Source: Treponema brennaborense DSM 12168
GTDB taxonomy: Bacteria > Spirochaetota > Spirochaetia > Treponematales > Treponemataceae
DNA: 64,000 bases
NCBI RefSeq assembly: GCF_000212415.1
Contig: NC_015500.1
Span: forward strand, 124,001-188,000
Reading direction: 5' to 3'
In this document: positions 32,399 through 37,213 of the stretch, piece by piece
Numbering within the stretch: position 1 is the stretch's first letter
Layout of the letters: every line of letters starts with the position of its first letter
Made by a program: the position numbers and the translations under genes
The notes under the pieces: model-generated
Databases searched by the model: none
What the model was told of the DNA's origin: nothing
The model's input: only the letters and a program-made list of their open reading frames with translations

Positions 32399-32425
32399 AG
32401 CCGGCGTGAGGCCGGCTCTTTTTTT
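32399..32425 (+). terminator. strong rho-independent terminator
   Basis: AGCCGGC (32399-32405) pairs with AGCCGGC's complement GCCGGCT (32411-32417) across a five-base loop, followed by CTTTTTTT. It overlaps the 3' end of the convergent MerR gene. Confidence 0.88.
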
Positions 32426-32798
32426 ATTCCAACGAACTTTCTATCGGATAAACGATATCGTCGTAATGGTCTATTTTGTACGAAAGATATTCGAGCGTTT
32501 GCTGCATTTCGGCAATACGCTCTTGCAGCGCCGCCTGCTGTTCGACAAGCAGTGCTTTGCGTGCTTTTTTGGTCGATTCGCCTTGCTGAAAAAGCGATAC
32601 GTAGTCGATGAGCACTTCCAGCGGAAGACCGGCGCGTCTCATGCATTTGATAAAGCTTACCCAGTTGCAGTCGATTTCGGAATAGCTGCGGATTCCGCCG
32701 GCGGTTCGGCCGATCGGCGGAAGCAGTCCTATGCGCTCGTAATAGCGGAGCGTGTCGGTTGAAAGTCCGTATTTCTGCGCAACTTCTGCAATAGTCAT
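32424..32798 (-). CDS. MerR-family transcriptional regulator
   Basis: A 124-residue regulator with the winged-helix MerR DNA-binding domain (MTIAEVAQKYGLSTDTLRYY, then ERIGLLPPI), the wing GGIRSYSEID, and a C-terminal coiled coil (about residues 80-115) for dimerisation. It lacks the cysteine cluster of metal sensors; it has two cysteines in the middle (DCNW, KCMRRAG). The overall form resembles the AdhR/NmlR stress-response type. GGAGG lies before the ATG. It stands alone between the small transcript and the DXS-like gene. Two MerR-type promoters with 19-base spacers lie 2.2 kb away, between the DXS-like and DUF362 genes, and are the likely targets. Confidence 0.9.
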   Translation of the reverse strand: MTIAEVAQKYGLSTDTLRYYERIGLLPPIGRTAGGIRSYSEIDCNWVSFIKCMRRAGLPLEVLIDYVSLFQQGESTKKARKALLVEQQAALQERIAEMQQTLEYLSYKIDHYDDIVYPIESSLE

Positions 32799-33119
32799 GT
32801 GATCCTCCCATAAAAAGTCAAGGAGGAACTGTCAATTTCCGCCTTGGCTTTTTACGCAGCTCCGCAGCAAAGTGAGAAACTGCACTTGATAAGAAAGTTT
32901 GCAGCGCAAACTTATAAAAGATAAAAACCGACGATATGGTAGGCGGTTTTTATCTTACATTCTTTATGATGAGTTCGGGCGGCGGCGTAATATTAAACGC
33001 GGCGGAGCGATTGACGGCTGCGTCGCCCGCCGTGACCGCGATTCGTTCCTCTACCGCGTCGCCCGCTGCTGCAATTGACGGCCGTGCTGTAGTCGTTAAT
33101 CCGCCGCGCCCGCGCACGG
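32799..33119 (-). other. gene-free region with hairpins and DXS-like gene terminator
   Basis: No coding gene is seen. Next to merR, AAAAAGTCAAGG (32812-32823) pairs with CCTTGGCTTTTT (32842-32853), and the merR -35 box TTGACA (32835-32830) lies in its loop. A perfect hairpin, AAGTTTGC-AGC-GCAAACTT, spans 32895-32913. The stretch 32955-33119 is GC-rich without recognisable features. Confidence 0.6.
32920..32954 (-). terminator. rho-independent terminator downstream of the DXS-like gene
   Basis: GATAAAAACCG (32920-32930) pairs perfectly with CGGTTTTTATC (32944-32954), with T-rich sequence on both strands, so it can act in either direction. Confidence 0.7.
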
Positions 33120-34895
33120 TTATTGTAATACGTTCAGCACGTCTTCGGCAATCTGCGCCGGCATCATACGGTTTTCTTTCAGCAGTTCGGCGGGGTCGTA
33201 TCTGTCCGGAAAACTTTTGGCCACACCGTAATTCAGCACTTTCATGCCGGATGCGCCGTAAAACGACGCGATTTTTTCACCGAAGCCGCCTTCTTTTACG
33301 CCGTCTTCAATCGTAACCGTTACGGAGTGCTCTTTTTTCAGCGATTCAAGCAGCGTCGTGTCCAGTCCGGTGATGAATTTGGGGTTGATCAGCGTGGCGT
33401 GTATTCCGCGCTGCGCCAGCAGTTCCGCCGTTTTTTCGCCGGTGCCGTACATGCTGCCGAGCGCCAGAATCGCGACGGTTTCACCCGCGCGGGTTACCTG
33501 ATACGCGTTCAGTACGGAATAGTCGGTCGTATCTTCGATTCCGGTGGAAACGACGGGTCCGGCGGGAACGCGAATGGCGACGGGGTGTTCGGTCTGCCGC
33601 ATCGACCAGCGGAGCATGGCGAAATATTCTTCTTCGGAAACCGGTGCCAAGTAGATCAGGTTCGGAATGCTGCCCATCAGCGCGATGTCGAACAAGCCTA
33701 AATGCGTAACGTCGTTCATTCCCCAAACGGAAGCCCAAAATACCAGAACGGTGGCCGGGTTGCGGTCTATGCACAAATCCTGAGACAGCTGGTCGTAGGC
33801 GCGCTGGATGAACGTTCCGTATACGCCGTACACCGCTTTTCCGCCGTTTTTGGCGATGCCGGCTGCGAGCGCGACGGCGTGTTCTTCGGCTATACCGACG
33901 TCTATGAATTGCTTGCCCGCTGCGCGTCGTTTTTCTTCAGTAAAACCGATGACGGTCGGCGTTCCCGACGTAATGGCGGCGACGGTCGGATCTTTTTTCA
34001 TTTCTGCCAGCAGATACTCCGCCGTCAGCGCGGCGTAATCTTTTTCCCGTACCGCGGAACCGTTCGCCTGCGCAATGCGTTTCGGCATACCGGTGTTTTT
34101 GTCGAACGGCGCGCCGTAATGCCACGTTTCCTTGTCTGCTTCCGCCGGAGCGAACCCTTTTCCCTTGACGGTGTGAATATGGACGACGACGGGGCGGGTG
34201 CAGTCTTTAACGGCCCGGAACGCGCCGATGAGTGCGTGAACGTCGTTGCCGTCCCGCACGTAGATATACTCGAAGCCCATCGCCTTGAAAAAATTACATG
34301 CAGCCGCGCCGTTCGTGTCGCGTAACAGCCGCAGGTTGGCGTACAGTCCGCCGTGGTTTTCCGCAATGGACATTTCGTTGTCGTTGACGACGACGATCAG
34401 GTTCGTTCCGTTTTCGGCGGCGTAATCGAGCCCCTCGAACGCTTCTCCGCCGCTGAGCGAACCGTCGCCGATGACGGCGATCACGTTGTACCGTTCGTTT
34501 TTCAGGTCTCGTGCTTTTGCAAGGCCCGAAGCGAGACTCACCGACGTCGACGTGTGCCCGATCGTAAAAAAGTCGTGCTCGCTTTCTTTCGGATTTGAAA
34601 AGCCCGTTACGCTGCCGTACTTCGCGGAGTCCGTAAACGCGGCTTTCCGGCCGGTAAGCATTTTGTGGGCGTAACTTTGGTGCGAAACGTCGTAAACGAT
34701 TTTGTCTTTCGGCGAGTCGAACACGTAGTGCAGCGCGGTCGTCGCTTCAACCATGCCCAAATTCGGGCCGACGTGTCCGCCGCGTACGCTCAGTTCTTCG
34801 ATCAGTGCGGATCTCAGTTCCGCACACAGACTTTCCAATTCGCTTCCGTGCAGTTTTTTTACGTCTGCCGGAGAATCGATGTGTTCCAAATACAT
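33120..34895 (-). CDS. 1-deoxy-D-xylulose-5-phosphate synthase-like thiamine-diphosphate enzyme
   Basis: A 591-residue thiamine-diphosphate enzyme of the DXS family, which normally condenses pyruvate with glyceraldehyde 3-phosphate for isoprenoid synthesis. The cofactor motif GDGSLSGGEAFEG with VVVNDNEMSI, the N-terminal SVRGGHVGPNLGMVEAT, VSHQSYAHKMLTGR and the activating glutamate in DVGIAEEHAVALAAG are present. The segment that in DXS reads DRAG-VG-DG-TH is here FWASVWGMNDVTHLG. This would replace the arginine and aspartate thought to bind the acceptor substrate, so the true acceptor is open. Expression appears to come from a MerR-type promoter 63 bases upstream. It may be the housekeeping enzyme or a stress-linked paralogue. 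Confidence 0.8.
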   Translation of the reverse strand: MYLEHIDSPADVKKLHGSELESLCAELRSALIEELSVRGGHVGPNLGMVEATTALHYVFDSPKDKIVYDVSHQSYAHKMLTGRKAAFTDSAKYGSVTGFSNPKESEHDFFTIGHTSTSVSLASGLAKARDLKNERYNVIAVIGDGSLSGGEAFEGLDYAAENGTNLIVVVNDNEMSIAENHGGLYANLRLLRDTNGAAACNFFKAMGFEYIYVRDGNDVHALIGAFRAVKDCTRPVVVHIHTVKGKGFAPAEADKETWHYGAPFDKNTGMPKRIAQANGSAVREKDYAALTAEYLLAEMKKDPTVAAITSGTPTVIGFTEEKRRAAGKQFIDVGIAEEHAVALAAGIAKNGGKAVYGVYGTFIQRAYDQLSQDLCIDRNPATVLVFWASVWGMNDVTHLGLFDIALMGSIPNLIYLAPVSEEEYFAMLRWSMRQTEHPVAIRVPAGPVVSTGIEDTTDYSVLNAYQVTRAGETVAILALGSMYGTGEKTAELLAQRGIHATLINPKFITGLDTTLLESLKKEHSVTVTIEDGVKEGGFGEKIASFYGASGMKVLNYGVAKSFPDRYDPAELLKENRMMPAQIAEDVLNVLQ

Positions 34896-34957
34896 ATGTG
34901 TCTCTTTATCCTTATAATTTCCGATTGCTGCCGTAACCGGTTGCAGGGTATGACGTA

Positions 34958-34988
34958 AAGATACGTGTTGGAGTTAACTCCAAGTCAA
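34958..34988 (-). promoter_or_regulatory. MerR-type promoter of the DXS-like gene
   Basis: Minus strand TTGACT (34988-34983), exactly 19 bases of spacer, TATCTT (34963-34958). The spacer is filled by the perfect palindrome TTGGAGTTAACTCCAA (34968-34983), the arrangement used by MerR-family activators that untwist over-long spacers. Confidence 0.8.
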
Positions 34989-35019
34989 GCACATTCCTTT
35001 TTTTTTGAAAATATTTTTC

Positions 35020-35050
35020 TTGACTTAGAGTTAACTCCAGGTTGTAAAAT
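35020..35050 (+). promoter_or_regulatory. MerR-type promoter of the DUF362-permease operon
   Basis: TTGACT (35020-35025), exactly 19 bases of spacer, TAAAAT (35045-35050). GAGTTAACTC (35028-35037) is centred in the spacer. It mirrors the divergent promoter at 34958-34988. Confidence 0.8.
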
Positions 35051-35198
35051 TACCTGAATGTGTAAAAACGGGAACAGCCGGTACGCGGCTGATTCCTTTT
35101 TGCGAATAAAGTTGCGCTGCGCGTCGTTCTTGATTGCAGTTTTCGGTATTTTTATCATACATTGACTGTCGGGCTGTGCCCGTTTTCTCGGAGGCTCT

Positions 35199-36206
35199 AT
35201 GAAATTGTCGAAAAAAAAGGCGTTCGTACTTAAAAGTGCGGCGCTTGTCCTGCTGCTGAGCGTATGCGCCGGCAGCGCTGCCGCCCAAAATGTACGGAAC
35301 GTGCCGGTGGCGCTTGAGCACGAGCGGGCAGCCGGTCCCGTCGTGTATATGACTGCCGAAATCAGTCCCGCGAGTTTGCAGCGGGTGTACGAAGCGCTCG
35401 GTCGCAAAGCCGCCGCTTCAACGCCGGACGGCAAAGTTGCGGTAAAAATTTCCACGGGCGAGCCCGGCGGTAAGAATTTTTTGCAGCCGGCGCTGATCGG
35501 AAAATTCATCCGGGATTTGAACGGCACGATCGTCGAATGCAACACTGCGTACGGCGGACGGCGTGCGAGCACCGCGCTGCATAAACAGGTGCTCGCCGAT
35601 CACGGTTTTACGGCCGTCGCGCCGTGCGATATTTTGGATGAAGACGGTTCAACTTCCATTCCGGTAACCGGCGGTATCAGGATAAAAGAAGCGTTCGTCG
35701 GTTCCCATTTCGATCGGTACGATTTTTATGTTATCCTTTCCCATTTCAAAGGACACGCGATGGGCGGGTTCGGCGGCGCGATAAAAAATATCGCCATCGG
35801 AATGCAGTCGTCGATGGGCAAGGCGTGGGTTCACTCCGGAGGCAAAAGTAAAACCAATCCCTGGGGCGGAAAGCAGGACGAATTCCTTGAGGCGATGGCG
35901 GAAGCGACCAAAGGGTTCGCCGATTATCAGGGTGAGCGGATATTGTATATCAACGTCATGAACCGTCTTTCCGTCGACTGCGACTGTGATGCGAATCCCG
36001 CCGAACCCGATATGCACGATATCGGTATTCTTGCGTCGCTGGATCCGGTTGCCCTCGATCAGGCGTGCGTCGATTTCGTGTACGCGGCGGCTGACGGAGG
36101 TTCGCTCCGGCAGCGCATCGAAAGCCGCAACGGTATTCACACGCTGGAACACGCCGCCGCTGTCGGTTTGGGCAGCTGCACGTACCGGCTCGTTCGGCTT
36201 GAGTAG
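35199..36206 (+). CDS. secreted DUF362-family protein without iron-sulfur clusters
   Basis: A 335-residue protein with a signal peptide (hydrophobic run, then AGSAAAQ) followed by a DUF362 domain: VAVKISTGEPGGKNFLQP, IVECNTAYGGRR, ILSHFKGHAMGGFGGAIKNI, and DCDCDANPAEPDMHDIGILA with SLDPVALDQACVDFVY. The cytoplasmic paralogue at 55736-56848 has two ferredoxin-type 4Fe-4S motifs in the middle; here that segment is replaced by GGKSKTNPWGGKQ. Histidines and acidic residues suggest metal binding. GGAGG precedes the ATG. Expressed from the MerR-type promoter and followed by a permease gene 11 bases later. Function unknown. Confidence 0.8.
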   Translation: MKLSKKKAFVLKSAALVLLLSVCAGSAAAQNVRNVPVALEHERAAGPVVYMTAEISPASLQRVYEALGRKAAASTPDGKVAVKISTGEPGGKNFLQPALIGKFIRDLNGTIVECNTAYGGRRASTALHKQVLADHGFTAVAPCDILDEDGSTSIPVTGGIRIKEAFVGSHFDRYDFYVILSHFKGHAMGGFGGAIKNIAIGMQSSMGKAWVHSGGKSKTNPWGGKQDEFLEAMAEATKGFADYQGERILYINVMNRLSVDCDCDANPAEPDMHDIGILASLDPVALDQACVDFVYAAADGGSLRQRIESRNGIHTLEHAAAVGLGSCTYRLVRLE

Positions 36207-36217
36207 GACGGCGCCGT

Positions 36218-37213
36218 ATGTGGGAAATCGTCAGGCGGGAATGCGTTTATCTGTGGTATTACGTGTGCCTGCAAGTGCAGCTGATCGTTCCGTATTGGGT
36301 GCTCGGATTGCTGCTCGGTTCCGCCGTGTCGGTGTTTTTGAAAGACCGCATCGCTTCGCTGTTTTTGGCTTCGGCGCGAACCTCTGAACCGCAAAACGCT
36401 GAATTGCGAACCGCTGAATTGCAAAACGCCGCACCGCGGTTCGGCGGGAAAAAAAACGCTGAACCGCGAACCGTTTCTTTCAGGGGACTCGTACCGGCGA
36501 GCCTGCTGGGCATCGCTTCTCCGCTGTGCATGTACGGAACGGTTCCGCTCGCGGCGTCGTTTTCGGTCGCCGGAGCGGGCGACGGTATCCTCGCCGCGTT
36601 CATGACCGCTTCGGTACTGCTCAATCCCCAGCTTTTGCTGTATACGGCGGCGTTGGGAAAAACGGCGGTTGCGGTCAGATTCGCGTCGTGTCTGCTTTGC
36701 GGAGTGGCGGCGGGATTCGCCGTCCGTCTGTATTGCCGCGTGCGCGGCAAGCCGTTTTTTAAGTTTACCGGTTTTTCTGCCGCGACGAGTCGCGATACGG
36801 ATCCGAACGCGGCGCTGCGGTATCTTAAAAATCTGTGGCGGAACGTAAGGGCGACCGGACCGTGGTTTCTGGCGGGTATCGCGGCTGCGGCTGCGTATCA
36901 GCGGTACGTTCCCGCGGAAGTCGTGGGGCGCCTGTTCGGAAAACACGAAGCGTTCGGACTGCTCACGGCCGCGGCGCTCGGCGTTCCGTTGTACGTGTGC
37001 GGCGGCGGTACCGTCGCGCTGATGGCCGGCTGGCTTGCAGACGGGATGAGCATGGGCGCTGCCGCCGCGTTCATGATCAGCGGTCCGGCGACGAAAATAA
37101 CCAATCTGGGTGCGCTCAAAACGGTTCTCGGTTCGGGCCATTTTTTTGCGTACATCGGTTTTTCCGTCGTGTTCGCCGCCGCTGCCGGTTTCGTTACCGA
37201 TCTGTTCTGTTAA
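36218..37213 (+). CDS. PF03773-type permease (ArsP-like)
   Basis: An inner-membrane protein of about eight helices in the DUF318/ArsP permease family. Members export organoarsenicals or have unknown substrates. The two halves show the family repeats PLCMYGTVPLAASFSVAGAG with ASVLLNPQL, and PLYVCGGGTVALMAGWLADG with ISGPATKITNLGALK. A hydrophilic insertion at residues 53-88 is encoded by a 15-base tandem repeat (36376-36435) and has no family counterpart that I recall. It is co-transcribed with the secreted DUF362 protein under a MerR-type promoter, consistent with a metal or toxicant response. Confidence 0.82.
   Translation: MWEIVRRECVYLWYYVCLQVQLIVPYWVLGLLLGSAVSVFLKDRIASLFLASARTSEPQNAELRTAELQNAAPRFGGKKNAEPRTVSFRGLVPASLLGIASPLCMYGTVPLAASFSVAGAGDGILAAFMTASVLLNPQLLLYTAALGKTAVAVRFASCLLCGVAAGFAVRLYCRVRGKPFFKFTGFSAATSRDTDPNAALRYLKNLWRNVRATGPWFLAGIAAAAAYQRYVPAEVVGRLFGKHEAFGLLTAAALGVPLYVCGGGTVALMAGWLADGMSMGAAAAFMISGPATKITNLGALKTVLGSGHFFAYIGFSVVFAAAAGFVTDLFC
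36376..36435 (+). repeat. 15-bp in-frame tandem repeat inside the permease gene
   Basis: About four units of GC(A/G)AA(A/C)CGCTGAA(Y)(Y), starting at 36376, 36391, 36406 and 36421. A partial unit recurs at about 36153-36170 plus 300 (36453-36470). Each unit encodes five residues of the type QNAEL or RTAEL, so copy changes keep the frame. Confidence 0.75.

Follow-up and report, generated by a model that had tools for sequence, protein, structure and literature searches.

The locus described here lies in a 64,000-nucleotide stretch of Treponema brennaborense DSM 12168 DNA (the window, whose numbering is used throughout). A DXS-like ThDP enzyme gene and a MerR gene run leftward from an intergenic gap, while genes for a DUF362 protein and an ArsP_1-family permease, separated by 12 bp, run rightward (Table 1). 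Profile matches bore out the initial annotation of all four genes. The DUF362 protein, presumably secreted, has no sequence relative in the PDB, and its AlphaFold model, which is of low confidence (pLDDT 64), returned no significant fold match. A terminator-like hairpin parts the DXS-like gene from the MerR gene, and downstream of it a TD-1-like RNA element fills the MerR leader, spanning the full model length with a score below gathering. The genome contains 21 such copies (20 besides this one), all of full length and all below the gathering score; several lie near start codons, and three occur in tandem at G000:C1:2300530-2300951.

Table 1. Features of the locus, in window coordinates
Feature	Positions	Strand	Basis
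MerR-family regulator, NmlR/AdhR-like, 124 aa, Cys52	32424-32798	-	Pfam, NCBIfam, PDB, orthologue alignment
TD-1-like RNA element in MerR leader	32806-32926	-	RF03155, 44.2 bits (gathering 64.5)
Terminator-like hairpin, DXS-like gene/MerR interval	32919-32956	-	Fold z -5.8
DXS-like ThDP enzyme, PRK12315 subfamily	33120-34895	-	NF008968, 882 bits; active-site alignment
MerR-type promoter/operator of DXS-like gene	34958-34988	-	Sequence; pattern search of window and genome
MerR-type promoter/operator facing DUF362-ArsP	35020-35050	+	Sequence; pattern search of window and genome
Strong terminator-like hairpin	35061-35104	+	-21.8 kcal/mol, z -4.8, 0/200 shuffles as stable; terminator scan
Second promoter-like site, TTGATT-17-TATCAT, hairpin-DUF362 interval	35130-35158	+	Weak, chance level
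DUF362 protein, hydrophobic N-terminus	35199-36206	+	PF04015, 154.8 bits; orthologues behind operator in loci L233, L046, L235
ArsP_1-family permease	36218-37213	+	PF03773, 103.5 bits; orthologues behind operator in loci L242, L225, L046

Two divergent promoters with 19-base spacers

The initial annotation had reported two divergent promoters with exact 19-base spacers carrying palindromes, and both were recovered as described, one on each strand, in the window and in the genome. On the minus strand, TTGACT (34988-34983) and TATCTT (34963-34958) enclose the 19-nt spacer TGGAGTTAACTCCAACACG (34982-34964), and the site holds a perfect 16-base palindrome, TTGGAGTTAACTCCAA, at 34968-34983. On the plus strand, TTGACT (35020-35025) and TAAAAT (35045-35050) enclose TAGAGTTAACTCCAGGTTG (35026-35044), with the 10-base palindrome core GAGTTAACTC at 35028-35037; this core is present in the spacers on both strands. 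In both cases 7 bases separate the dyad centre from the 3′ end of the -35 box. Both sites therefore have the spacer of 19 to 20 bases, and the dyad operator inside it at a fixed distance from the -35 box, that are expected of MerR promoters. Geometry of this 19-base type is their defining mark (PMC9909328; PMC5045206), and a 7-base distance is likewise reported for CueR and CadR sites, the value being that for 21-bp sites (PMC5045206).

In the window, 0.04 matches to the combined pattern would be expected with up to three mismatches, against the two found with zero mismatches, and none of 100 shuffled controls contained two matches. A search for further 19-base-spacer copies of the palindrome, which had been proposed earlier, was run across the 3.06-Mb genome and returned these two exact sites only. 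The next-best matches have three mismatches, the level of the reversed control, and no regulon beyond the two sites was found in this genome with the pattern. Searching the literature with the operator sequence brought up unrelated matches only. Rfam matches to ohsC and to miRNA families were rejected, being accounted for by the local hairpin and the two inverted operators.

Transcription is predicted to start near 34951 on the minus strand and near 35057 on the plus strand. A strong hairpin begins a few bases past the predicted plus-strand start and is possibly a leader attenuator or a short RNA. It is flanked by an A-tract and a U-tract and could terminate in either direction. Because so strong a hairpin follows the start, read-through into DUF362 may be regulated. 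Together with the second promoter-like site behind it (the scan gave 4 promoter-like matches against 2.6 expected), the hairpin makes the plus promoter's control of the DUF362 operon less simple than had been claimed. The promoter sites assigned to the DXS-like gene and to the DUF362-permease operon stand, and control of DUF362 is qualified to this extent.

The putative regulator and the operator class in other genomes

The window's MerR protein matches the Pfam families MerR_1, MerR and MerR-DNA-bind. Its DNA-binding domain is followed by a short effector helix with no metal-binding tail, as in NmlR and AdhR, and the chain stops at residue 124, in the coiled helix. The best NCBIfam model is that for NmlR (NF041849), at 139.5 bits, which is below the cut-off of 175; relatives of the protein score 127-142. 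It aligns with PDB 3gp4 and with HiNmlR (PDB 5e01), and its Cys52, within FIKCMRRAG, is aligned with the HiNmlR cysteine (Cys54) and kept in all 14 MerR relatives aligned. Cys52 is the sensor position of AdhR and is needed for AdhR function (PMC4776306, review). The earlier impression of NmlR/AdhR resemblance holds in the light of the conserved cysteine.

Protein searching alone identified the nearest MerR orthologues (61, 54 and 53% identity), from three related genomes, and every one of them has an operator of this class immediately 5′ of its gene. By this comparison the assignment of the local MerR is strong, and the protein is likely the regulator of both promoters. Its gene has no operator of its own in this genome. 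The gene itself is as first described, except that the label of orphan does not fit, since in relatives the gene is under its own control and shares an operon with DUF362, ArsP or the DXS-like gene.

The geometry is conserved in related sites. For the spacer test, sites in other genomes were picked on the -35 box and palindrome only, disregarding the -10 box, in loci retrieved because they encode a protein resembling the DXS-like enzyme or MerR; 17 sites were left once near-duplicates had been removed. A TAnnnT lies at exactly spacer 19 in 16 of these 17, and at the other spacer lengths, from 13 to 24, the count is 0-2. This conservation, along with the operators beside the MerR orthologues found by protein, upholds the MerR-type architecture proposed for the two promoters. 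Searched with the full pattern, 244 same-order genomes contained 37 sites, spread over 22 of them, and no match to the reversed pattern; with the window's own two set aside, the tally is 35 sites in 21 of the 243 related genomes that remain.

Operator, regulator and target genes are linked across these genomes. For example, the operator is followed by MerR and DUF362 in L233, by MerR, AKR/Fer4, DUF362 and ArsP in L046, by MerR, AKR/Fer4 and ArsP in L225, by ArsP in L242, and by two genes and then DUF362 in L235. Similarly, in Ruminococcus-type genomes it precedes MerR and a DXS-like gene (L058 and L065) or MerR, CMD/cupin and a DXS-like gene (L061). Because some of the DUF362/ArsP loci were found via the operator search, they show what the operator controls and not how frequently. 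In spirochaetes the operator also targets, among others, flavodoxin, FMN reductase, AKR, SDR, CMD and DJ-1/PfpI genes, and some operators have no DXS-like, DUF362 or ArsP target.

Of 76 DXS-like loci, ten have an operator directly 5′ of the gene, against an expectation of 0.42 and none with the reversed pattern. These ten, several of which are close relatives of each other, belong to Elusimicrobia, Clostridia (Romboutsia, Clostridium), a selenomonad and Fibrobacter. No operator was detectable by the DXS-like genes of rumen and other Treponema, so MerR control is not universal. In six Bacteroidales loci (L071, L073, L074, L078, L080, L132) an AraC-type regulator, not MerR, lies at most 1.4 kb from the DXS-like gene. 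In nine other genomes of the same genus the DXS-like gene, DUF362 and the operator were all absent, which suggests that the locus was gained by transfer or lost elsewhere. A literature search for the gene combination found nothing relevant, and the initial annotation had regarded it as unfamiliar; it is no one-off, as the same operator, regulator and targets recur in other genomes. The comparisons support a recurrent module in which a MerR-type switch is repeatedly linked with the same unusual genes across phyla.

Active-site residues of the DXS-like enzyme

The genome encodes a separate canonical DXS (G000:C1:1382696), of which the DXS-like gene is a paralogue. The active sites were aligned, in E. 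coli numbering, against this canonical DXS and an E. coli DXS fragment that served as a ruler, its numbering being supported by residues that fall where published work places them. Equivalents of R420 and R478 are both absent in 75 of 75 DXS-like rows, the window protein having W and A instead, and both are kept in the three canonical-type rows. The catalytic E370 and H431 equivalents are invariant (78 of 78 rows), and the 75 DXS-like rows retain the R398 equivalent as well. The window protein thus shares with canonical DXS the ThDP-enzyme domains and the equivalents of E370, R398 and H431, whereas it differs in lacking R420 and R478, in having N for D427, in being a paralogue and in its predicted inducible MerR-type promoter.

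In E. coli DXS, R420 and R478 bind GAP (glyceraldehyde 3-phosphate) (PMC11908136); in the R478A variant the Km for GAP is about 1.4 mM (PMC11019550), and turnover by R420A is extremely inefficient (PMC11908136). Aldehydes other than GAP are also accepted by DXS (PMC11908136). Since the GAP-binding arginines are lost and DXS takes other aldehydes, the DXS-like enzyme may use an acceptor other than GAP. A DXS-like structure, PDB 9kpq, belongs to the same subfamily and matches the window protein over residues 1-589; a literature search found no paper naming it.

The neighbourhood of the DXS-like gene in other Treponema holds genes for flavodoxin, AKR, cyclophilin-like and DUF362 proteins. One Treponema MAG encodes a DXS-like protein with a fused C-terminal cupin domain (L101 2982-5183), and near DXS-like genes an FGE-sulfatase domain is fused to flavodoxin_4 in Fibrobacter (L076 3809-5245) and Treponema (L112 8758-10161). 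The DXS-like gene of a Treponema relative (L246, G080:C24) has one in-frame TAA and is possibly a pseudogene or an assembly error.

A candidate electrophile-responsive regulon

Taken together, we consider it probable that the two divergent promoters form an electrophile- or carbonyl-responsive regulon of the NmlR/AdhR type. In the proposed mechanism a MerR dimer, most likely from 32424-32798, would bind the palindromes within both 19-base spacers, and in the resting state the over-long spacer would hold the -35 and -10 boxes out of register. Modification or liganding of MerR at or near Cys52 by an electrophile or carbonyl would then kink and untwist the DNA, and the distorted DNA would let RNA polymerase initiate in both directions. 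The leftward output would be the DXS-like ThDP enzyme. Because this enzyme lacks the arginines that hold the phosphate-bearing aldehyde of DXS, it may couple two carbons derived from pyruvate with a different aldehyde, probably one that is non-phosphorylated or reactive. The rightward output would be the DUF362 protein and the ArsP-family permease. What the comparisons show is the promoter geometry, its conservation and the way operator, regulator and targets go together in different genomes; that this MerR binds the sites, what induces it, which substrate the enzyme takes and what the DUF362 protein and permease do are inferred. Counted against the regulon are the NmlR score below cut-off, the lack of a MerR operator here, where a hairpin sets the MerR gene apart from the DXS-like one and a TD-1-like element fills its leader, and the hairpin before DUF362, as are the rumen Treponema DXS-like genes that lack an operator and the operators with other targets.

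Several other readings were weighed against this regulon. That the two sites are chance palindromes might be entertained because the flanking gap is AT-rich and few bases separate them, but the expectation for the window, the conservation across genomes with zero reversed-control matches and the spacer-19 test rule this out, and we dismiss it almost completely. A MerR-type regulon could instead answer to another genomic MerR or to a metal or metalloid signal, the ArsP-like permease being its chief effector. The genome does encode four MerR_1 proteins over cut-off, three besides 32424-32798, the permease belongs to an ArsP_1 and Cu/Zn-efflux-like family, and the dyad distance is that of CueR and CadR sites (PMC5045206). 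However, only one of the other MerR proteins is detectable from the local one, weakly (E 2.8e-4); the local MerR, with its short chain, falls far below the CueR, MerR, ZntR and CadR cut-offs; orthologous MerR genes lie directly behind such operators; and the other targets of the operator class are redox and carbonyl enzymes. We therefore think a metal signal or a different MerR unlikely.

The outputs can also be read differently. The position and stability of the hairpin, along with the promoter-like TTGATT-17-TATCAT, would fit a plus promoter whose sole product is a short terminated RNA or an attenuated leader, DUF362-ArsP being expressed from its own promoter at 35130-35158. Such promoter-like matches occur at chance level, however, and in L233 and L046 DUF362 lies in a MerR operon behind the operator without such a gap, which leaves this arrangement unlikely. 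On the leftward side, the DXS-like protein scores over the TIGR00204 dxs cut-off and retains E370, R398 and H431 equivalents, as would be expected if it were no more than an additional, inducible DXS raising the supply of precursors for isoprenoids, thiamine or pyridoxal during stress. Against a second DXS stand the canonical enzyme already present, the loss of R420 and R478 in all 75 non-canonical rows where the single E. coli replacements are impaired, and neighbours that are flavodoxin, AKR, CMD, cupin and DUF362 genes; no MEP-pathway genes were recognised among the neighbour clusters examined. We regard that role as quite unlikely.

Within the favoured electrophile-responsive regulon, a bolder and tentative possibility, which we hold at well under even chances, is that the members of this widespread DXS-paralogue subfamily are MerR-controlled, inducible ThDP carboligases, which would detoxify or salvage reactive aldehydes by condensation with pyruvate-derived hydroxyethyl-ThDP, together with DUF362 and an ArsP-family exporter. 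If true, such an aldehyde-carboligase pathway would be an electrophile defence not described in the literature searched, and isoprenoid-pathway annotation and the logic of DXS-targeted inhibitors would need correcting. DUF362 and the ArsP-type permease would thereby be placed in a physiological setting, and the clear operator sequence would make the electrophile regulon predictable across phyla.

The comparison with characterised systems supports a variant of the known NmlR/AdhR kind, in which the new elements are the DXS-like, DUF362 and ArsP targets. Bacillus subtilis AdhR (YraB) is likewise an NmlR/AdhR-type MerR with a sensing Cys52 and a MerR-type promoter, and the genes of its regulon encode an alcohol dehydrogenase, a CMD protein and a cysteine proteinase (PMC4776306, review). 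CMD and reductase-type enzymes of that regulon also occur in the wider operator family, whose targets by analogy appear to resemble it. In contrast to AdhR, the targets here are the DXS-like enzyme, DUF362 and the ArsP permease, and no adhA partner lies at the locus. Similarly, the NmlR of Haemophilus influenzae and Neisseria (adhC-estD) provides the best NCBIfam model, an aligned PDB structure and the conserved cysteine, whereas the window's protein scores below the equivalog cut-off, has no adhC or estD and is not encoded divergently beside its target.
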